From an uncultured bacterium (GTDB taxonomy: Bacteria > Bacteroidota > Bacteroidia > CAILMK01), in assembly GCA_903829945.1 (NCBI GenBank), contig CAIKRV010000055.1, positions 1 to 40,602 of the forward strand: 40,602 bases of DNA, read 5' to 3'. The position numbers were made by a program, and so were the translations under genes. A model generated the notes under the pieces. The model saw nothing but the letters and a program-made list of their open reading frames with translations, did not search any database and had not been told where the DNA came from. The number at the start of each line of letters is the position of its first letter. The stretch's first letter is position 1. Shown piece after piece: positions 4,703 through 28,849 of this stretch.

Positions 4703-4729
4703 TTGTTTCTTTAAAAATCCCTAAATTCG
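4703..4729 (+). promoter_or_regulatory. Probable promoter of the C10 protease operon
   Basis: TAAATTCG at 4722-4729 matches the TAnnTTTG consensus except for C in place of the third T of the TTTG core. A TTG at 4703-4705 lies 16 nt upstream as a possible -33 element. The box ends 22 nt before the protease ATG. Confidence 0.45.
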
Positions 4730-4751
4730 CTGACAATAAGATATTATACAC

Positions 4752-7379
4752 ATGAAAAATATTTACGTAATTCTTTTGATTTTGCTTCCTTTTGGTCTTT
4801 TTGCGAAGCAAATAGATGTACAAACTGCACAAATGATTGGTACTCGTTTTATAGAAAATAAAGCGATATCGAATACTTTAAAAAATAATGTGCATTTGAA
4901 ATTGGTATATACCTCACAATCGGAGAAGCAAGATAATACCAATACCTCTGTTTATTTTTATGTTTTTAATATTAATACTGACCAAGGCTTTATTATCGTT
5001 TCAGGTGATGATATCGTAAATCCTGTATTGGGTTATTCCTTGGAAAGCGGATTTGAATTTAGCAAAATGCCACCGCAAGTGGCTAATTGGATAGAAAATT
5101 ATCGTAATCAAATAGCTTATGCAATCAACAATAATTTAGAAGCAACTCCGAGCATTAAAAGTAAATGGGATGAATTGTATAACAATTCTTATGTTTTAGC
5201 TAAAAAGAGTGGAGGTGTAAGTGCACTATTAAAAGTAAAATGGGATCAAAGTCCATATTATAATGATAAATGTCCATATGATAATTCAGCCGGTGCAAGA
5301 ACAGTTACCGGGTGTGTGGCTACAGCGATGGCGCAAGTGATGAAGTATTGGAGTTATCCGGCCAAGGGTTCCGGATTTCATTCTTATAAACATTCTACTT
5401 ATGGAACGCTATCTGCTGATTTTGCTAATACCAGCTACCCTTGGTCTTCCATGCCAAATTCAGTAACAAGTTCAGATTCCAATGTTGCAAAACTGATGTA
5501 CCAAGTGGGAGTAAGTGTGGATATGAATTATGGTGTAAAATCTAGTGGTGCTTATGTAATAAGCTCTCAGAGTCCGGTGACTAATTGTGCTGAATATGCT
5601 TTAAAAAACTACTTTAAATTTGATAAGAATTTAAAAGGAATTACACGCTCAAGTTATACCGATGCAAAATGGATTAGTACTTTGGAAACCCAATTGGATT
5701 CCAGTTGGCCGGTTATTTATGCAGGATTTGGTTTAGGTGGCGGACATTGTTTTGTTTGCGATGGATATGATGCAAATAATTACATGCACATGAACTGGGG
5801 TTGGTCAGGGTATTACAATGGATATTTTCAAGTGGATTCTCTAAATCCAACCGGTACCGGTACCGGTGGTGGTAGCGGAGGATACAATAGCAGTCAGCAG
5901 GCTATTATAGGGATAAAGGGTGTTACTTCAAATACCACTTCAGGTGATTCTATGTTTTTGGATAAAGATTTAGTTACTGATAAAGCAACCTATTATTATG
6001 GCGGAGGTATAAAAGTAACTACTGATATTAAAAATACCAGCAAGACTAATTTTACAGGTTATTTGTGTGTTGCCATTTTTGACAATTCAAATAATTTTGT
6101 TGATTATTTACATATAGATAGTAATATTACTATTAAGGCAGGTCAAACGTATGCTTATACCGTAAAAGATTCATCCTATGGCATATTACCCGGGACATAT
6201 ACATTATATGCCTACCATAGAGTCTCCGGCGGGAATTGGGACTTATTAAATCCTGCCACTAATTTGGTAAATTATTATTCTAATATTTCAATAATAAACC
6301 CAAGTGCTTTGGAAATGAATACCGATGACAGTTTGGTGCCAACTGAATTTGTTCAGGGAAAATCAGCATCTGTTTATTTTAATTGTGGCAATTTTGGTAG
6401 TATCAGATTTAAAGGAACGGTAGGGGTTTATTTATATACACTTGACGGACAATTTGTGGATAGCATCCAAACCATACGTCCTAAAGCATATTTGCCTCCA
6501 TTTGTTTCACCCTATACTACCTATTATATTTTCCCTAAAAAACTGGTTTTTACTACTTCAAAAATAAATGCTAATCCGGGTACTTATTTATTGGCAGCCC
6601 AATACAAGTATGATACCACTTACAATAACTATAATAAATATTGGTTCTTAATCGGTTCAACTTATCATCAGAATCCAATTAAGGTTAATGTGAAAGCTGC
6701 ACCGCTCAGTCCGGATAAATATGAAGTGAATGATTCCTTACCGATTGCCTATAGTTTACCGGTTAGCTTTAGTGGAAATAAAGCCACCGTTAATACCACC
6801 GGGTCTAATATACACGTCACTACTGATAAGGATTATTATAAGGTAGTATTACCGAGCGGGTATGATTATACCATTGGTGCTACTTTGCAAAATAGCAGCT
6901 ATTCTACGAATTCGAATACTTATACCTTAAATGCCATTTTCTCTTATTCTACCAATGCGGGAAGTACTTGGGGCGGCCCCTATGGAGACACCTTACCTTC
7001 TAAAATAAAATTGGTAAATGGAGGAGTGGCTTATTTCAATGTATCTCCATATTTTGCAGGCAATACCGGTACTTATGAATTAGATCTAGGAATTACCAGG
7101 ATTGTACATACAGGAATAGAAAATACTAGCAATGATCAAAATATTTTCGTGTATCCAAATCCTGCTCATGATTTATTAAATATTGATATTTCAGGATATA
7201 ATCAAAAGGTACAATGGATGAGTTTAACTGATTTGCAAGGCAGAGAAATGCTTGCCATAGCAGGAGGAGCATCTCAAAGAGTTTATCAAATGCAATTGGG
7301 TACCTTAGCTAAGGGAATATATATTTTAAAACTGATATCGGGTGAAAATGTAATTACTAAGAGAGTAGTTGTTGAGTAA
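4752..7379 (+). CDS. C10 family (streptopain-like) cysteine protease with T9SS type A sorting domain
   Basis: Secreted protease of 875 residues. Order: signal peptide (1-18); inhibitory Spi-type propeptide (about 20-150); C10 peptidase domain (about 155-395) with nucleophile Cys188 in TGCVATAMAQ and His332 in GGGHCFVCDGYD, followed by the MNWGWSGYYNGYF strand typical of SpeB; a Gly-rich loop (GTGTGGGSGG); beta-sandwich regions (about 400-790); and a C-terminal sorting domain (VYPNPAHDLLNID to KGIYILKL). The last should route it through the type IX system to the cell surface or medium. By analogy with SpeB and the Bacteroides fragilis proteases it is made as an inactive zymogen. The stop overlaps the start of the next gene by one base, indicating translational coupling. 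Confidence 0.95.
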   Translation: MKNIYVILLILLPFGLFAKQIDVQTAQMIGTRFIENKAISNTLKNNVHLKLVYTSQSEKQDNTNTSVYFYVFNINTDQGFIIVSGDDIVNPVLGYSLESGFEFSKMPPQVANWIENYRNQIAYAINNNLEATPSIKSKWDELYNNSYVLAKKSGGVSALLKVKWDQSPYYNDKCPYDNSAGARTVTGCVATAMAQVMKYWSYPAKGSGFHSYKHSTYGTLSADFANTSYPWSSMPNSVTSSDSNVAKLMYQVGVSVDMNYGVKSSGAYVISSQSPVTNCAEYALKNYFKFDKNLKGITRSSYTDAKWISTLETQLDSSWPVIYAGFGLGGGHCFVCDGYDANNYMHMNWGWSGYYNGYFQVDSLNPTGTGTGGGSGGYNSSQQAIIGIKGVTSNTTSGDSMFLDKDLVTDKATYYYGGGIKVTTDIKNTSKTNFTGYLCVAIFDNSNNFVDYLHIDSNITIKAGQTYAYTVKDSSYGILPGTYTLYAYHRVSGGNWDLLNPATNLVNYYSNISIINPSALEMNTDDSLVPTEFVQGKSASVYFNCGNFGSIRFKGTVGVYLYTLDGQFVDSIQTIRPKAYLPPFVSPYTTYYIFPKKLVFTTSKINANPGTYLLAAQYKYDTTYNNYNKYWFLIGSTYHQNPIKVNVKAAPLSPDKYEVNDSLPIAYSLPVSFSGNKATVNTTGSNIHVTTDKDYYKVVLPSGYDYTIGATLQNSSYSTNSNTYTLNAIFSYSTNAGSTWGGPYGDTLPSKIKLVNGGVAYFNVSPYFAGNTGTYELDLGITRIVHTGIENTSNDQNIFVYPNPAHDLLNIDISGYNQKVQWMSLTDLQGREMLAIAGGASQRVYQMQLGTLAKGIYILKLISGENVITKRVVVE
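5850..5867 (+). repeat. Three tandem ACCGGT hexamers in the protease gene
   Basis: Three perfect consecutive ACCGGT units, read in frame as Thr-Gly repeats, sit in the Gly-rich loop after the catalytic His of the C10 protease. In-frame slippage would change loop length by two residues per unit without a frameshift. Confidence 0.8.
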
Positions 7380-7873
7380 TGAGATACTTTATTTTATCTT
7401 TAGTTCTTGTGCTATGCAATTGCACTTGTCCCAACAAAATGCAAAATAGCACCATTACTCCTAGCTATCATGATGAAGCGCATGTAGTGGTATATAAAAC
7501 CAGGGGAAATTATATAAACAATGTTCCCATAACACTTTCGGAAGATAGAAAGAGTGTGCTTTCATATCCAGACCCGTCAGATTTAAAAGTGGGTAATGAA
7601 TTTACAATGCCTACACCATTGAAGGATGGTTATTTATTGGACCGAAGAGGCGTATCAAGAAACAGTGTGTTTTTGAAATTAAATTATACGGAATACGCAA
7701 ATTTGAAAAAAGCTCCTAGCCGAGATGAATTATTTTCAATTATAATGGATGAAACTCCATTTATAGAATTAATTGACTGTGGAGATAGGAGTGCTTATAA
7801 AAATCTGCTCGCCGATATTAATTTATTAATTACGACAAAGCAATTGCGTAAAAAGTGTAAAATTATAATTTAA
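7379..7873 (+). CDS. Small secreted protein of unknown function, coupled to the C10 protease
   Basis: 164 residues. The first ~15 residues are a hydrophobic signal ending in a Cys cluster (CNCTC). A lipoprotein is possible, but no canonical lipobox with G, A or S before the Cys is present. The body has short conserved-looking segments (NNVPITLSEDRKSVLSYP, KDGYLLDRRGV) resembling a family I recall as uncharacterised in Bacteroidota; that recollection is unverified. Its ATG shares the A of the protease stop codon (TAATG) and the CotH gene follows 5 bp later, so all three are probably one transcript. C10 proteases are often accompanied by small specific inhibitors (Spi in Streptococcus, Bfi in Bacteroides), so an inhibitor or chaperone role is a fair hypothesis, not a finding. 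Confidence 0.8.
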   Translation: MRYFILSLVLVLCNCTCPNKMQNSTITPSYHDEAHVVVYKTRGNYINNVPITLSEDRKSVLSYPDPSDLKVGNEFTMPTPLKDGYLLDRRGVSRNSVFLKLNYTEYANLKKAPSRDELFSIIMDETPFIELIDCGDRSAYKNLLADINLLITTKQLRKKCKIII

Positions 7874-7878
7874 GAGCC

Positions 7879-10665
7879 TTGAAAAAACATTTAATTTTTC
7901 TCATTTTAATTTTACCAAATTTACTTTTTGGAACATCCACTTTTTACAAAGGGGTTGGCGGAAAAATAAATGATAAAGGTTCGGGCGTTGATTTTAAAAT
8001 TAAACTTAGTGGGATTACACCTAATGCTGCAACGGATACCTTCGGAATAGAGGCTGTTTGTATAAAGGTTTCCCACAAAGATGTAAGTAAATTGGCTTTT
8101 TCATTGGTAGCACCGGATGGTACTACTATTGCTTTAGCTACGAATATTGGCTCAGGAAATAGATATGACAGCACAATATTTTCGGATACCGGTACCATGT
8201 TAATTGATTTGAGCAAGGTGCCATTTCGAAATAATTATAAGGCCGAAGGCCAACTAAAATTAGTCAATGATGGACAGTTGCTGGATACCAATTGGACTTT
8301 ACATATTACGGATTCATATTCACCTGCAGGAACAGGTGGATCATTAACCTATTGGTATTTGGTTGTAGGAGATCATCCGGCATCAGATGTTAAATTGTTT
8401 AGTTCAAATTTGCCCATATTGGTTATTAATACACGAGGGGTAAGCATGCCTTATTGGTCCAAAACTATGGCTGATATGCGGGTGATTTATAATAATTCCG
8501 GTAATAGAAATTTTTTAAGGGATACTGCAAAAAACAAGGGTTATTGTATGATTGGTATCCGTGGCAGTTCTTCGTCCGGATTTCCAAAAAAAAGTTATTC
8601 ACTTATTACCACAGATAAAAATGGGGTTAGTAAAGATACTAATTTTATGGGCTTCCCTATTGAGCATAGTTGGGATTTAATTGCAAATTATACAGATAAA
8701 ACTTTACTTCATAATTACCTGACATATTTATATGGCAGGAGGATGGGACATTGTTCTGCCAGGACAAAATTTGCCGAGGTAATTGTAAATGGAGTTTATC
8801 AGGGTGTTTTTTTAGTGGATGAATCCATTAAAAAAAATATCAACAGAGTTAATATAAATAAACTTGGTTCAGCGGATACCACGGGTGATGCATTAACCGG
8901 AGGATATATTATCAAGATTGATAAATTCACCGGCACCTATACCGGTTATTGGGCATCAAATTATAGTCCGCCTAATCATGCTTATGGTCAGCAAATATTA
9001 TTTCAATATGATTATCCCTATCCTTTGCAGACTCAACAAACAAATTATATTCAAAAGTATATAGATAGTTTTGAAACTGCCCTCAATGGTTCTAATTATC
9101 AGGATACCGTGATTGGGTGGCGAAAATATGCTTATGAAAATGATATGATTGATTATTTTATCAGTACTGAATTATGTAGAAACGTAGATGGCTATCGTTT
9201 AAGTACTTTTTTATATAAGGATAGAAATAGTGTGGGAGGAAAAATACATATGGGGCCATTATGGGATTATGATTTGGCATGGGGTAATGCCAATTATTAT
9301 AGTGGTTCCAGTACTTCCGGTTGGGCTTATACTTCTACAGATCCGGGTGATGGCTTCCAAACGCCTTTTTGGTGGGGTAAATTCTTAAAGGATTCCACTT
9401 ATAAAAATAACCTTAAATGTAGATGGACAGTATTGCGTAGAAATATGCTAAGCGATTCTGCAATTAAATCAGACATTACTAATGCAGTAAATATACTCAG
9501 TGAATCAGAAGTTAGAAATTTTAATGAATGGCCGGAACTAGGCGTTTATGTGTGGCCGGAACCTAGTTATCCAGCTACCTATGCATTAGAAATCAGCAAT
9601 CTTAGAAAGTGGGTTAAAGCACGAACTTTATGGTTGGATAAAAATATTCCCGGTACCTGCAGAAAAGATATTACCCCACCGGTAGTAGCATTAAACTATA
9701 AGGATACCGTTTATTTGGAAGTGAATACTCAATACAAAGATTCAGGTATTACTTATAATGACAATGTAGATGGTAAAGCATGTAAAATTGTAATATCTCA
9801 AAATGTGGATTCTTCAACATTAGGAACCTATGTGTACTATTACGACGTATATGACAAGGCCGGGAATAAAACCGAGGTACATCGAATCGTAATTGTAATA
9901 GATACGATTCCTCCAACTATTAATTTTGTAAATGGAGATACCATTAATCTTGAAGTGCTAACAAAGTATTCTGAAAAGGATGTGATTATAACTGATAATT
10001 ATGATACTGCTTTAGTAAAATCACGTAGTGGCAATTTTAATTTTATTAATAATATTCCGGATAGCCTAGGTACTTATACTTTAAAATATACAGCTACGGA
10101 TAAATCAGGTAATAGTACTGCAAAGACAAGGTATATTCATGTGATTGACTCTATTCCACCTGTTATAAATTTTATTGGTCATCCACTAGTGAATCTAAAG
10201 CAAAATGATAGTTATACCGATTCAGGATATATTGTAAAAGATAATTTTGATAGCTTTCCTACTGTTACAAAAGGTGGCACTTTTTTAAATACTTTACTTC
10301 CAGGAAGCTTTACTTTAACCTATCAGGCGATGGATCATTCCGGAAATAAAAGTAATTTATTGACCCGAACTATTAACGTAGCTTCAACTACGGGTATTAG
10401 TAATGAAGAAAATATCAATGAAATAATTAATGTTTTTCCTAATCCAAGTAAGGGTAGCATTACTTTAAATAGCAATGTCAATAAATATTATCATGTGGAA
10501 TTGATAGATAATTTAGGGATAACCGTTCAATACTTTACGTGGAATGCTATTCAGCAATCAAATATTAGTTTTAATTTGTCCGGCAGTTTATCAGACGGTA
10601 TTTATATTTTAAAAATATATTCTGGTACCTCTTCATTCCATCAACAACTTATATTAAAGCGATAA
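7879..10665 (+). CDS. Secreted CotH-kinase family protein with P-domain, Ig-like repeats and T9SS type A domain
   Basis: 928 residues starting at a TTG (7879); no ATG precedes the signal peptide (1-18). Order: proprotein-convertase P-domain (about 25-165, with LVAPDGTTIAL and DSYSPAGTGG); CotH domain (about 170-600), with GIRGSSS and the characteristic GPLWDYDLAWGNANYY containing Asp463 and Asp465; three DUF5011/Ig-like repeats each opening with a TPPxxx-type motif (about 605-680, 681-757, 758-835); and a C-terminal type A sorting domain (VFPNPSKGSITL to DGIYILKIYSG). CotH proteins are atypical secreted kinases in spore formers; in Bacteroidota the role is mostly unknown, and surface protein modification or polymer binding are both possible. 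It is the third gene of the C10 protease operon. Confidence 0.9.
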   Translation: MKKHLIFLILILPNLLFGTSTFYKGVGGKINDKGSGVDFKIKLSGITPNAATDTFGIEAVCIKVSHKDVSKLAFSLVAPDGTTIALATNIGSGNRYDSTIFSDTGTMLIDLSKVPFRNNYKAEGQLKLVNDGQLLDTNWTLHITDSYSPAGTGGSLTYWYLVVGDHPASDVKLFSSNLPILVINTRGVSMPYWSKTMADMRVIYNNSGNRNFLRDTAKNKGYCMIGIRGSSSSGFPKKSYSLITTDKNGVSKDTNFMGFPIEHSWDLIANYTDKTLLHNYLTYLYGRRMGHCSARTKFAEVIVNGVYQGVFLVDESIKKNINRVNINKLGSADTTGDALTGGYIIKIDKFTGTYTGYWASNYSPPNHAYGQQILFQYDYPYPLQTQQTNYIQKYIDSFETALNGSNYQDTVIGWRKYAYENDMIDYFISTELCRNVDGYRLSTFLYKDRNSVGGKIHMGPLWDYDLAWGNANYYSGSSTSGWAYTSTDPGDGFQTPFWWGKFLKDSTYKNNLKCRWTVLRRNMLSDSAIKSDITNAVNILSESEVRNFNEWPELGVYVWPEPSYPATYALEISNLRKWVKARTLWLDKNIPGTCRKDITPPVVALNYKDTVYLEVNTQYKDSGITYNDNVDGKACKIVISQNVDSSTLGTYVYYYDVYDKAGNKTEVHRIVIVIDTIPPTINFVNGDTINLEVLTKYSEKDVIITDNYDTALVKSRSGNFNFINNIPDSLGTYTLKYTATDKSGNSTAKTRYIHVIDSIPPVINFIGHPLVNLKQNDSYTDSGYIVKDNFDSFPTVTKGGTFLNTLLPGSFTLTYQAMDHSGNKSNLLTRTINVASTTGISNEENINEIINVFPNPSKGSITLNSNVNKYYHVELIDNLGITVQYFTWNAIQQSNISFNLSGSLSDGIYILKIYSGTSSFHQQLILKR

Positions 10666-13557
10666 TTAATCTCTGCGGAATCTTTTGAAATCACCAGGCT
10701 GATCAGTAGGGCTGGTAGTAGGTGGAATATATCCTTTAAATGCTCTGATGGTATAAGTAATATTCAGCATAAAATACCTTTTTAAGACCAAGGTTTTATC
10801 ATCTTCAATATAGGTTTCAGTAATGGAACGGCTGATGCTTTTATTTTGACCCAATAAATCAAAGGCACTTACTTTTACTTCCAGCCCTTTATTTTTAAGA
10901 AATTTATATCCAAAAGCAGCATTCCATAGGAAAAAATTCTGATTATAACTTTGACTTAAACCGGTATAATAAGTATTATTAAGCGTAGTATTAAAAATAA
11001 ATCCGTTAAAGAAAATGTAATTTAATTTTACTCCGGCGGTATGATAAAAATAATGTTGATTGCTTTGACTTTGAACAGAGTTCATTACATCATTATAATT
11101 TCCGCTGTAGGATAACGTAAAATCTAAATTTTCACTAATATTACTTCCTAAAACCGCGGAACCTGTGTAGGTATAATTATTCGAAATGTTTTCAATTTTA
11201 TTAATAATAGCCGGCGTACGACCATAAGTAAATCCACCGCTTAGATTTAAATTTGATTTGAAGAAGCCGACAGGCATACCATAAGTAAGAAAGCTTCTAC
11301 CGGTCCAATATCCTTGCAAATTGATAGGCTTGCTCAGTTGACTGCCTTCACCTAATAATATTCCACCCGGTAAATTTATTGGACGACCTGCAATTATGGT
11401 AGAATTACCAATATAATCCTGGGTATATGAGCCATTGATAAACATAAATAAGCTGGTTGCATTCTTTGCATTAACTGAGCCGAATCTGGCTGTTAAATTT
11501 TGGGCATATTCTTGCTTTAAATCCGGATTTCCAACACTCAATTGGAGAGGATTTGAATTATTTACTACATTTTGTAATTGACTAACTGAAGGAGCATTGG
11601 TAGAGGCTCTATAAAATATTCTTAAATTAGTAGCAGATGAAAATTTATAATTTAAATTAAATTGAGGAAGTAAATTGGTAAATATCTTTTGAGGCATATC
11701 ATAGGTTTTTGGATAAGTTTCGCTGCCATTCAAAAACGCAGTTTGATAATCTATGCCTGCCGCCAAGCTCAACTTTTTATCTCCTAATCTATAGCTAATA
11801 CCGCCTCTTTGTGTTAAGTAGGTACTGTGATATTTATTACTAAGCTGAGAATCTAAAACAGAGAACTCTTTTCTGACCGGGTCGAAATTATTGGTGCTTT
11901 TATCTGTCGTACTAATACTATAAGAAGGCAAATAACTGAACATAATTAAACTTATTTTGCTTAAAGGTTCAGTATATGAAAGATTGGTGGAAATACTTTG
12001 ACTGGAGGTGGTTTGTGGAATATATTGATTGATTATATTGGAAGAATCTTTCCCATTCCGATAATAATCGTTTTGAGAATATTGAGTAGTATTTCCCGTT
12101 TTATAATTATCGGAACCTGTTATGGCCAATGATATAGTTCTGCCTATGGTTCTAAATTTATGGCGTAAGGTTAATGTACCACTGGCATTATATCCATTAT
12201 TTAAGGCGCTGGAATTATTTTGTGTTTTACTTAATGTATCAATTCCTTGTCGGGTATTTATACCGGTGGTAGTTTTTAAAGTATTATTGTTTTGAAAACT
12301 AATCCTTGGCTGAAAGATGATAGAATTAAAAGAGTCTATGGCATAATCCATCCTTAAGTTTAATCTATTATTATAATTTAAACTATGGGTATTATTATGC
12401 TCTTTATATACCAGACCACTATCAGATGAGCTAAAATACGTTCGTGTAAGGTCAGTAGTATTATCATTACTTGCAGAATTGAAAAAATAACTGGCAGTAA
12501 TTTTTATCTTTTTACCCCACATATCAGAATAATTAAAGCCTGCAGAGTTTGTTAGAGCAATTCCACTTTGAGGACCAACTAAAAAATTTCCCGGATTTGA
12601 ACCATTATTAAAATTACCTCCGCCTCCGCCGCCACCGCCACGAAACATTCCTCCACCTCCACTAGACCTGCCGCCTGCTCCGGTACTTTGCCCTAATACG
12701 CCAAGAATATCATCCATATTGAAGTTTTGCTGATTAATATTATTGCTTAATCCAAGCAATGATATTCTGCGATCTCCATTGAAAAAATTCAAAGCACCAC
12801 CCTCAATAAATCTATTGTCAGGGCCATATCCCGTATATATTTTACCAAATATGCCATTGGCTTTTTCTTTTTTGGTGGTAATGTTGATTGTTTTTTGAGA
12901 GTTTCCATCATCAATCCCGGTAAAGGCAGCTTGGTCACTCAGTTTGTCCATTACCTGCACCCGGTCAACCACCTCTGCAGGTAAGTTTTTAAGGGCTACA
13001 TTTGGGTCATCGCCAAAAAAAGGTTTACCATCCACGGTTACTTGTTGCACTTGTTCACCGTTTACTTTCACAACACCACCGTCACTGGTAACGCCCGGCA
13101 TTTTGGTGACTAAGTCTTCTGTGGTTGCATCTTTATGGACTTTATAAGCATCAGCTCTAAATTCTGTAGTATCTCCATGTTGTTCCACTCTTATTTGTTT
13201 GCCTTCAACTTCAACGTTTTTAAGACTATAACTGGAGACCTTCATTTTAATAGTACCAATATTTACGTCTTGATTACCAACACTTAAAATCTTTCGAATG
13301 CTAGTATATCCTAAAAACGAGATCTTTAGGACATAATTTCCCGGATTTACATTGTAAAACACAAAGTTTCCGTCATAATCAGCAACTTTACCCATATGCT
13401 GGGTGGAGTCAGTGGCATTCATTAAAATGACATTAACCCCAAAAAGTGATGAATTATCGGCAGCATCTTGAATTTGCCCGGAAATTTTAACACCTTGACT
13501 ATAAGCGCTATTAATGAAAAATAATAGGCTTAAAAGTAAATATAGTTTTTTAATCAT
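10666..13557 (-). CDS. TonB-dependent receptor-like outer membrane beta-barrel protein
   Basis: 963 residues: signal peptide (1-20), CarboxypepD_reg-like beta-sandwich (about 22-108), plug-like domain (about 120-230, with VTKMPGVTSDGGVVKVNG and TVDGKPFFGDDP), then a long beta-barrel (OMP_b-brl_3 type) to the C-terminus. A Gly-rich stretch lies near residues 295-325. This class is abundant in Bacteroidota and usually lacks an assigned substrate. No SusD partner is adjacent. The stop codon directly abuts the stop of the convergent CotH gene, leaving no room for a terminator. Its upstream region faces the DinB gene and carries an imperfect -7 box (AAACTTTG on the minus strand, 13599-13606). Confidence 0.92.
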   Translation of the reverse strand: MIKKLYLLLSLLFFINSAYSQGVKISGQIQDAADNSSLFGVNVILMNATDSTQHMGKVADYDGNFVFYNVNPGNYVLKISFLGYTSIRKILSVGNQDVNIGTIKMKVSSYSLKNVEVEGKQIRVEQHGDTTEFRADAYKVHKDATTEDLVTKMPGVTSDGGVVKVNGEQVQQVTVDGKPFFGDDPNVALKNLPAEVVDRVQVMDKLSDQAAFTGIDDGNSQKTINITTKKEKANGIFGKIYTGYGPDNRFIEGGALNFFNGDRRISLLGLSNNINQQNFNMDDILGVLGQSTGAGGRSSGGGGMFRGGGGGGGGNFNNGSNPGNFLVGPQSGIALTNSAGFNYSDMWGKKIKITASYFFNSASNDNTTDLTRTYFSSSDSGLVYKEHNNTHSLNYNNRLNLRMDYAIDSFNSIIFQPRISFQNNNTLKTTTGINTRQGIDTLSKTQNNSSALNNGYNASGTLTLRHKFRTIGRTISLAITGSDNYKTGNTTQYSQNDYYRNGKDSSNIINQYIPQTTSSQSISTNLSYTEPLSKISLIMFSYLPSYSISTTDKSTNNFDPVRKEFSVLDSQLSNKYHSTYLTQRGGISYRLGDKKLSLAAGIDYQTAFLNGSETYPKTYDMPQKIFTNLLPQFNLNYKFSSATNLRIFYRASTNAPSVSQLQNVVNNSNPLQLSVGNPDLKQEYAQNLTARFGSVNAKNATSLFMFINGSYTQDYIGNSTIIAGRPINLPGGILLGEGSQLSKPINLQGYWTGRSFLTYGMPVGFFKSNLNLSGGFTYGRTPAIINKIENISNNYTYTGSAVLGSNISENLDFTLSYSGNYNDVMNSVQSQSNQHYFYHTAGVKLNYIFFNGFIFNTTLNNTYYTGLSQSYNQNFFLWNAAFGYKFLKNKGLEVKVSAFDLLGQNKSISRSITETYIEDDKTLVLKRYFMLNITYTIRAFKGYIPPTTSPTDQPGDFKRFRRD

Positions 13558-26275: not shown

Positions 26276-28663
26276 TTACTTTAATGTCATTACATTACCG
26301 GTGATGTAATGCGTACTTAAATCCCAACCGGTATAAGTAATTTGATAAACATATACATTATTGAAATTGTTTTTACCTCTAAAATTACCATCCCATAGTT
26401 GGTGCTTATTATCCGCTTGAAATACTGTTTCGCCCCAACGATTAAATACTTTCAAGCTAAAATCTTTAACAAAAACCGGTACGATGCCCCATTTATCATT
26501 TAAACTGTCACCGTTTGGGGTAAATACATTAGGCGCATAAACCACAGGTGCTTGTATAAGTTGTAATTCATTTGAGGTGCTGCTCGCATTGTAGCCATTG
26601 GGTCCTTCGTGTGCAATTATTTTATACCAATAAATTCCCCAATCTATGCTAAGTTTATCATCCACAAATGTGACATTGGGTGCCAGCGTATAATTTAATG
26701 AATCCAAGGTATCCTGTGGATCACGTCTTGCTATAGAATAATATTCAACGCCTCCTTTCCATTCTATATACGGATTCCAAGTTAAATGACTTTCAAAAGG
26801 AACAGAATTTCCTTGTAAAAGAATGGAACAAGCCTCGTTACTTTTTTTACTGATATAACCACATTTACTTGTTGCTATTAATTGATAACAATAAGAATGA
26901 TTCATTACATCCACCTCAGAATCTAAATATGAAATTTCATTTCTATTTTTAAAAATCTTAAGAAGAGTTAAAGAATCTCCGAGTTTATCTGATTTTTTAT
27001 ATAGTATATAGCTCATAAAATCTCCTTCCGGAGCTACTTGCCAATTAATTCTAACTTTTTTATTTTCTACACTTGCACTAACAATATATCTGGAAGAGGG
27101 TGCTTTTGGATAACTTGGATCGGAATACACAAGATAACTGGGATCACCCGCTTTACCGCATATATTATATCCTATAAAATAATACTTATAAAATTTATGG
27201 GTATTATCAAATGCTGTTTTATCCAAAAAATAGGAAACATTTATCTTACTGAATAGCGTGTCAACAACCGTTTCAGTGCTATCAGGATTTTTTCTTATTA
27301 AAAGATAATAGGCAAAATATTTATTAATATCCAGTTGTCCGAAATTAATGCGCAAAGTATTACTATCTATTCTATCTAAACAAACAATTTGAGGAGGAGC
27401 AGGGGTAGGAGTAGGAAGAATAATAATCTTTATTTTTGAACTCGAAATTCTATGAATTGGACAGCCATTATCTTCTGTCCTAAAATAAACATATTCCGTG
27501 TCCGGTGCATTTGTATTGCAATTTGTCACCCAATCAAAATAAGTATGATACTCGCCTTTTCCACCACCACTGCCTTCGCTTAAGGTTGCATAGGGCGGTT
27601 TGATTGTTTTGCTACCATTAAAAACGGTTCCCGTATAAGAAAAATAAACAGAATCTTTGTTTGGGTCTACAATGTCTATCGGGAAATGCAAGGTATCAAT
27701 GGCATAAATAGTATATACATCATTATTGGCGGAATCATTATATACCGGCGCAGGATTATTGGCACAAGAACTTATTGTTAATTGTAATTCTCTTCGTATT
27801 TCACCTAGTTTCTTTCCATGCCGGTATTCTTCCACACGAATAGAAATTGCATATACTCCTTGTGCTCTTGGCGTAACACTTAATTGTCCGGTATGGGGAT
27901 CTATTTTTAATTTATCATTGCTATAAGCATCCATGATATTATTTAAGGAATAACCTCTAACCCATGATACATCAGGATAAGGTCCTGCATTCATAACTGG
28001 GTAGTTGGTCTGCTTATCATCATTGGGATTGGAGCCGCTGGTAAATCCTTTTAAAGGAGTAACTAATGAATACACTAAGGAATCTCCGTCAGCATCCGTG
28101 CAATTGTAATTAAATACAAAAGGGCTTCCTACACAAAGCAAGGTCAAAGGATCTTTTTTAAAAACCGGGGTTGAGTTTATAATGTCTAATCTAGGAATTT
28201 CCATATAATAGGCTTCTCCTGTATTTCCCGAAGAACCAACTCCTACATCTATATTTTTAATAATAACATTTCGGCAGCAACGCTCCCAACTGAAATAATA
28301 GCCGGCTGTGCTCGTGTAAATATTCGGGTCTAAACTTACTCTGGTTTTATAGGTTCCAATATGGGTACAACCTGTAGGAATGCGAATGCAATTTTTAGCC
28401 ACAAATACCAGAGTATCATTAGAAATAATGTTACCCATATAAATATCCTGAACCATACGGTTGTTGGATTTATCATACATTCCAACATGTACATTTTCAT
28501 TGAACCACGGAATCCCATGTTCACAATCCCTAAAGATGTGAAGTGATAATTCATATACATTGCCACTTACATGTTGTAAACTAAAATCTCCTCCAACCAA
28601 ATGCGATGCCTTGGCCTCAGTTAAGGCAAAGAAAATGAGAAATATGGAGCAGAGTTTTTTCAT
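26276..28663 (-). CDS. Large secreted protein with type B T9SS (CHU_C, gliding-motility-associated) C-terminal domain
   Basis: 795 residues from the ATG at 28663 (an earlier TTG at 28672 is less likely). Signal peptide at 1-20, then SHLVGGDFSLQHV, an N-terminal motif common in large Bacteroidota surface proteins. The middle (about 25-700) consists of beta-sandwich/fibronectin-like segments, including a Cys-rich part (about residues 100-130, RCCRNV). The last ~85 residues form the CHU_C domain: APNVFTPNGDSLNDKW, LKVFNRWGETVFQ and LWDGNFRGKN. Type B signals usually anchor cargo to the surface without the A-LPS attachment used for type A. The function is unknown; adhesin or matrix roles are plausible. 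Confidence 0.9.
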   Translation of the reverse strand: MKKLCSIFLIFFALTEAKASHLVGGDFSLQHVSGNVYELSLHIFRDCEHGIPWFNENVHVGMYDKSNNRMVQDIYMGNIISNDTLVFVAKNCIRIPTGCTHIGTYKTRVSLDPNIYTSTAGYYFSWERCCRNVIIKNIDVGVGSSGNTGEAYYMEIPRLDIINSTPVFKKDPLTLLCVGSPFVFNYNCTDADGDSLVYSLVTPLKGFTSGSNPNDDKQTNYPVMNAGPYPDVSWVRGYSLNNIMDAYSNDKLKIDPHTGQLSVTPRAQGVYAISIRVEEYRHGKKLGEIRRELQLTISSCANNPAPVYNDSANNDVYTIYAIDTLHFPIDIVDPNKDSVYFSYTGTVFNGSKTIKPPYATLSEGSGGGKGEYHTYFDWVTNCNTNAPDTEYVYFRTEDNGCPIHRISSSKIKIIILPTPTPAPPQIVCLDRIDSNTLRINFGQLDINKYFAYYLLIRKNPDSTETVVDTLFSKINVSYFLDKTAFDNTHKFYKYYFIGYNICGKAGDPSYLVYSDPSYPKAPSSRYIVSASVENKKVRINWQVAPEGDFMSYILYKKSDKLGDSLTLLKIFKNRNEISYLDSEVDVMNHSYCYQLIATSKCGYISKKSNEACSILLQGNSVPFESHLTWNPYIEWKGGVEYYSIARRDPQDTLDSLNYTLAPNVTFVDDKLSIDWGIYWYKIIAHEGPNGYNASSTSNELQLIQAPVVYAPNVFTPNGDSLNDKWGIVPVFVKDFSLKVFNRWGETVFQADNKHQLWDGNFRGKNNFNNVYVYQITYTGWDLSTHYITGNVMTLK

Positions 28664-28849
28664 TTTTGGCAATTCAACCTAAATTAAAAAAAGAACATAC
28701 AAAAGTCGCAATAATAAACATCAATCCTATAAAATGATAGCTATTTCTATGTCATATTACGAAATAACTGCCAAATAAGTTGGGTACTCAGTGGCATAAC
28801 TAACATTATATCTTAGCAGGTAAGTTCCTTTTTATGCAAATAGGAACAA

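Follow-up and report, generated by a model that had tools for sequence, protein, structure and literature searches.

A small lipoprotein encoded beside C10 cysteine proteases in Bacteroidota: a conserved gene pair and a proposed periplasmic guard role

The window analyzed here, a stretch of 40,602 nucleotides from an uncultured member of the Bacteroidota, contains three closely packed open reading frames on the + strand, at 4752–7379 (875 aa), 7379–7873 (164 aa), and 7879–10665 (928 aa), the third of which starts with a TTG codon. The stop codon of the first gene and the start codon of the second overlap by 1 bp (taATGa), and the second gene is separated from the third by a 5-bp gap. These coordinates bear out the layout on one strand that had been described in an earlier sequence-only reading of this DNA. 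That reading had also placed the start of the unit at 4722, behind one likely promoter; a promoter-like element was indeed found at this position—that is, a weak, putative −7-like element of the Bacteroidota type, TAAATTCG (4722–4729, + strand), ahead of the protease gene—but the gene itself begins at 4752. The single promoter is unproven, with 155 Bacteroidota-type promoter matches observed across the window versus 138 +/- 11 expected by chance, and scans of the window for promoters and terminators gave signals not above chance.

The first gene (4752–7379) encodes a predicted C10 (streptopain-like) cysteine protease. The C10 family counts streptopain, interpain A, and periodontain among its members, and the first two of these are the closest solved relatives of the window protease in a search of the PDB. 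The protein consists, in order, of a signal peptide, an I69 (Spi-type) propeptide (residues 18–121, 4803–5114, + strand; PF13734, Inhibitor_I69, 2.1e-21), a Peptidase_C10 catalytic domain (residues 164–359, 5241–5828, + strand; PF01640, 1.3e-59) in which the catalytic Cys and His are aligned and conserved, a beta-rich tail, and a C-terminal type A sorting domain of the type IX secretion system (T9SS) (7149–7373, + strand; PF18962/TIGR04183, Por_Secre_tail 1.5e-10). By its domains, it is thus assigned to the C10 (streptopain) peptidases with an I69 propeptide. The structure model of the full protease had a pLDDT of 47, too low for use.

The third gene (7879–10665, + strand) encodes a protein assigned by domain to the CotH family (PF08757, 1e-45), which also has a T9SS type A sorting domain (Por_Secre_tail 2.6e-9). 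The three Ig-like repeats ascribed to it from sequence were found again, and the P-domain just passes, at 21.1 bits against a cut-off of 21.0. The sorting domain noticed on both large proteins was confirmed, PF18962/TIGR04183 scoring above cut-off in each, and both are accordingly classed, by their C-terminal Por_Secre_tail, as predicted T9SS type A cargo. Another apparent T9SS cargo is encoded elsewhere in the window, at 26276–28672 on the − strand; this protein, of 798 aa, has a CHU_C (type IX) domain at its C terminus and gave no further match in Pfam. The gene convergent with the CotH gene (10666–13557, − strand) encodes an outer-membrane beta-barrel protein (OMP_b-brl_3), its stop codon abutting that of the CotH gene, and the same convergent arrangement is seen in a congener, G001 (locus L051).

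The distribution of the small protein encoded by the second gene was examined across related genomes. A first search of 149 relatives recovered a homologue in 14 genomes, and two further loci (L002 and L003) were taken from GTDB contigs; at 14 of these 16 early loci, a C10 protease is encoded immediately upstream, in most cases with its stop codon overlapping the start codon of the small gene. With a profile built from the 16 loci, 395 genomes of the class were then searched; the small protein was found in 29 of these and a C10 protease in 85, with all 29 carriers of the former encoding the latter (hypergeometric p=6e-22, a value that ignores kinship). The carriers span 16 family-level groups in the class, and 25 of the 29 have the small gene immediately behind a C10 gene, on the same strand. 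G324 and G448, which belong to another class, likewise have the small gene beside a C10 gene on the same strand. The family as considered below has 33 members—the 29 class carriers together with L002, L003, G324, and G448—and a C10 gene adjoins the small gene in 29 of them.

The spacing within the pair is tight. Among the 28 copies located downstream, 23 overlap the stop codon of the protease gene (15 by 4 bp, 5 by 1 bp, and 3 by 14 bp), and the other five start 3–78 bp behind the C10 gene. G448 (L117:4511-8435) shows the opposite order: the small gene comes before the C10 gene, at a distance of 40 bp, and its product bears a non-lipoprotein signal peptide; this reversed yet adjacent order argues for selection on proximity. 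The four non-adjacent members are found in G026, G074, G584, and G593 (the loci being L056, L059, L119, and L120), each with C10 genes elsewhere in the genome. Judged from these genome comparisons, the C10 gene and the small gene are an old, conserved two-gene pair. Co-occurrence of the three families in related genomes had been named in the sequence-only reading as a refuting test; by this test the pair of C10 protease and small protein holds, and the trio does not, a CotH gene following the pair only in the window's own genome and in G001.

The proteases that carry the partner are not scattered at random among C10 enzymes. When 51 C10 catalytic domains were placed in a tree, the partnered proteases clustered, with 6 label changes compared with a mean of 16.8 after shuffling (0 of 500 shuffles as low), and most fall in one group of T9SS proteases of ~860–880 aa. 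One partnered enzyme (L131) is distant in the tree. It is also one of the shorter partnered proteases, along with L003 and L061, and the latter two indicate that the long tail is not required for a partner. The catalytic Cys and His are kept in all partnered C10 proteases that cover the site, L133 being a contig-end fragment, and the active sites of these proteases are thus intact. Distances between partners correlate modestly with those between proteases (Mantel r 0.34, 54 of 5000 permutations as high). Most C10 proteases do not have this small partner, including close relatives that lie inside the partnered group (L074 and the first copy of L125) or nearby (L066 and L081), and the small lipoprotein is therefore not essential to this type of enzyme.

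The small gene of the window (7379–7873, + strand) encodes a 164-aa protein whose family has no description in the libraries searched. The protein itself matched no model in Pfam or NCBIfam, and the family profile found no relative of note among PDB sequences and no family in Pfam. Members are mostly 155–182 aa long. Residues highly conserved in the family include, in window numbering, Y39, P64, D68, P78, L81, G84, L87, D88, R90, G91, P127, C134, and G135, and its conserved motifs are Y-L-L-D-x-R-G and D/N-C-G. Within the block, the small protein is the least conserved between the window and its congener, with 48% identity as compared with 67–82% for its neighbors. Given three sequences, AlphaFold produced a mixed alpha/beta model that is confident for most of residues 34–164 (block means 70–95). 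A fold search of this model against the PDB gave nothing significant (best E 0.88), and the predicted fold thus yields no functional lead. Two candidate identities were rejected. For an inhibitor resembling the Spi/I69 propeptide, no PF13734 match was found in 16 members, and the profile–profile comparison with hhalign gave a probability of 0.1%. For a staphostatin, there was no match in Pfam, in the PDB profile search, or among the best 50 of 83 fold matches.

The signal segment noticed at the N terminus of the middle protein is, in nearly all relatives, a lipoprotein signal: a lipobox is present in 30 of the 33 members, and the remaining three have a conventional signal peptide. For five members the scripted call fell on an earlier Cys, and reading the N termini by eye led to the same result. 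Surface export of Bacteroidota lipoproteins needs a K/S-(D/E)2-like signal past the lipidated Cys, that is, K, S, or Q followed by an acidic pair (PMC5080379). An acidic pair directly after the lipidated Cys occurs in none of the 30 lipobox-bearing members, in which basic residues are common at this place, and the export signal of a surface-exposed lipoprotein is therefore absent from them. With a lipobox and no surface-export signal, the small protein should face the periplasm, on the inner side of the membrane to be crossed by the protease on its T9SS route.

The small proteins studied so far that are encoded beside papain-like bacterial proteases are inhibitors, namely Spi for SpeB and the staphostatins for the staphopains, or putative inhibitors, namely Bfi and Bti (PMC2873492; PMC3462683). 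The pair described here has the same layout, with proteases that have to pass through the periplasm on their way to the type IX translocon. A guard role is the best explanation for it: on balance, we favor the reading that the small lipoprotein is a periplasmic guard or inhibitor of the C10 zymogen, unrelated in sequence to the Spi propeptide fold. The protease would be made as a zymogen with its I69 propeptide and would reach the surface by way of the periplasm, exported by the type IX system. The overlapping gene, probably by coupled translation from the same mRNA, would yield a lipoprotein anchored in the envelope and facing the periplasm, where it would most likely bind the C10 protease, block prematurely matured enzyme, and so protect the cell, much as Spi and the staphostatins do in the cytoplasm of Gram-positive bacteria. 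Several points count against this role: the protease already bears an inhibitory propeptide of its own, most C10 proteases do without this partner, the distances of partner and protease show no more than a modest correlation, and four members of the family are away from any C10 gene. A bolder version, in which the small protein represents a new fold class of C10 inhibitor, an inner-facing lipoprotein guarding the periplasm against a T9SS cargo protease in transit, is tentative, and we regard it as conceivable rather than probable. A search of the open literature found nothing on this partner with type IX C10 proteases, and the papers covered describe no protective layer of such a kind for a T9SS protease. 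If a guard role is true, bacteria would have recruited guard proteins for C10 enzymes several times over, and it would give a name to a family of ~160 residues that no searched database describes. It would also pose the question of what renders destructive type IX cargo harmless during its passage through the periplasm of Bacteroidota.

The main rival, which we consider unlikely, gives the lipoprotein a dedicated role in folding or export—that is, as a foldase-like, membrane-tethered chaperone keeping the C10 zymogen competent for the translocon. Such a helper would give the same genomic pattern as a guard, sharing the pairing, the coupling, and the predicted periplasmic location of the lipoprotein, and most partnered proteases do share the long ~860–880 aa architecture with a T9SS tail. 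However, close C10 relatives of the same architecture have no such partner (L074, L156, and the first copy of L125), while partners also occur behind the three shorter proteases, suggesting that neither the tail nor export needs the partner. In addition, the known small partners of C10 and C47 proteases are inhibitors or putative inhibitors (PMC3462683). Less likely still, the lipoprotein may serve the envelope in a way of its own, such as by taking up or binding peptides, and share no more than its regulation with the protease. The four members without an adjacent C10 gene fit such a role, but their genomes, as every other census genome with the small protein, also encode a C10 protease; the lack of a surface-export signal speaks against it, as does the absence of a transporter or any other constant third gene beside the adjacent pairs.

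It is highly doubtful that all three genes work as a single unit, with the CotH kinase-like/P-domain protein serving the protease as a substrate, activator, or surface partner, as the sequence-only reading had proposed. The spacing is tight in two species of the genus, the CotH gene of G001 (L051) standing third after a gap of 1 bp and encoding a protein 67% identical to that of the window, and T9SS sorting domains are common to both large proteins. However, no CotH gene lies beside any of the other 27 adjacent C10–lipoprotein pairs. G003, which belongs to the same family, encodes relatives of this CotH protein (up to 50% identity) on contigs other than that of the C10 gene, and the window's genome encodes four CotH proteins versus one C10 protease. 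The proposed relation to the protease, whether as substrate, activator, or kinase, thus finds no comparative support and the three-gene module was rejected; of the coupled operon, the first two genes stand as a conserved pair, and the third is limited to the genus. The CotH gene is best seen, from its distribution, as a genus-specific neighbor of the pair, perhaps sharing its transcript. In the window's genome, three further CotH-domain proteins are encoded in one cluster on contig C66 (5188-12995). An open-literature search for CotH with T9SS found nothing.

Several known systems can be compared with the proteins of this locus. The third protein is like the CotH spore-coat kinase family in having a full-length CotH domain; unlike those kinases, it is predicted to be exported by the T9SS and carries a P-domain and Ig repeats, and its kinase activity is putative. 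With SpeB and Spi of Streptococcus pyogenes, the pair has in common a C10 protease and a small partner gene in the same operon, but Spi is propeptide-like and cytoplasmic, whereas the window family has an export signal and no detectable relation to the I69 propeptide. The staphopain–staphostatin systems of Staphylococcus (C47) likewise have a papain-like protease gene followed by a small partner gene, whose product is a co-transcribed inhibitor; staphostatins are, however, cytoplasmic lipocalin-like barrels, to which the window family has no match in sequence or fold.

The layout and the predicted location also resemble those of the Bfp/Bfi and Btp/Bti systems. The bfp and btp C10 genes of Bacteroides are co-transcribed with small exported putative inhibitors, often lipoproteins, some encoded 4–5 bp downstream (PMC2873492; PMC3462683). 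The window family similarly consists of small exported proteins, often lipoproteins, encoded within a few bases of a Bacteroidota C10 gene, with a predicted guard role in the periplasm. The two are set apart by their descriptions: Bfi and Bti are staphostatin-like, mostly beta proteins of 116–138 aa, whereas the window family is mostly 155–182 aa with a mixed alpha/beta model, and Bfp and Btp are predicted lipoproteins, whereas the window protease is predicted T9SS cargo. In plasmid and phage records, C10 matches are present, with no Bfi/Bti-like partner gene beside those examined. Behind three short lipoprotein-type C10 genes of other genomes (L145:2473-4322, L144:1520-2595, and L139:2379-4272), at −4 to +5 bp, lie genes for small Bfi/Bti-like lipoproteins that do not match the profile of the window family, which suggests repeated recruitment of C10 partners that differ in sequence.
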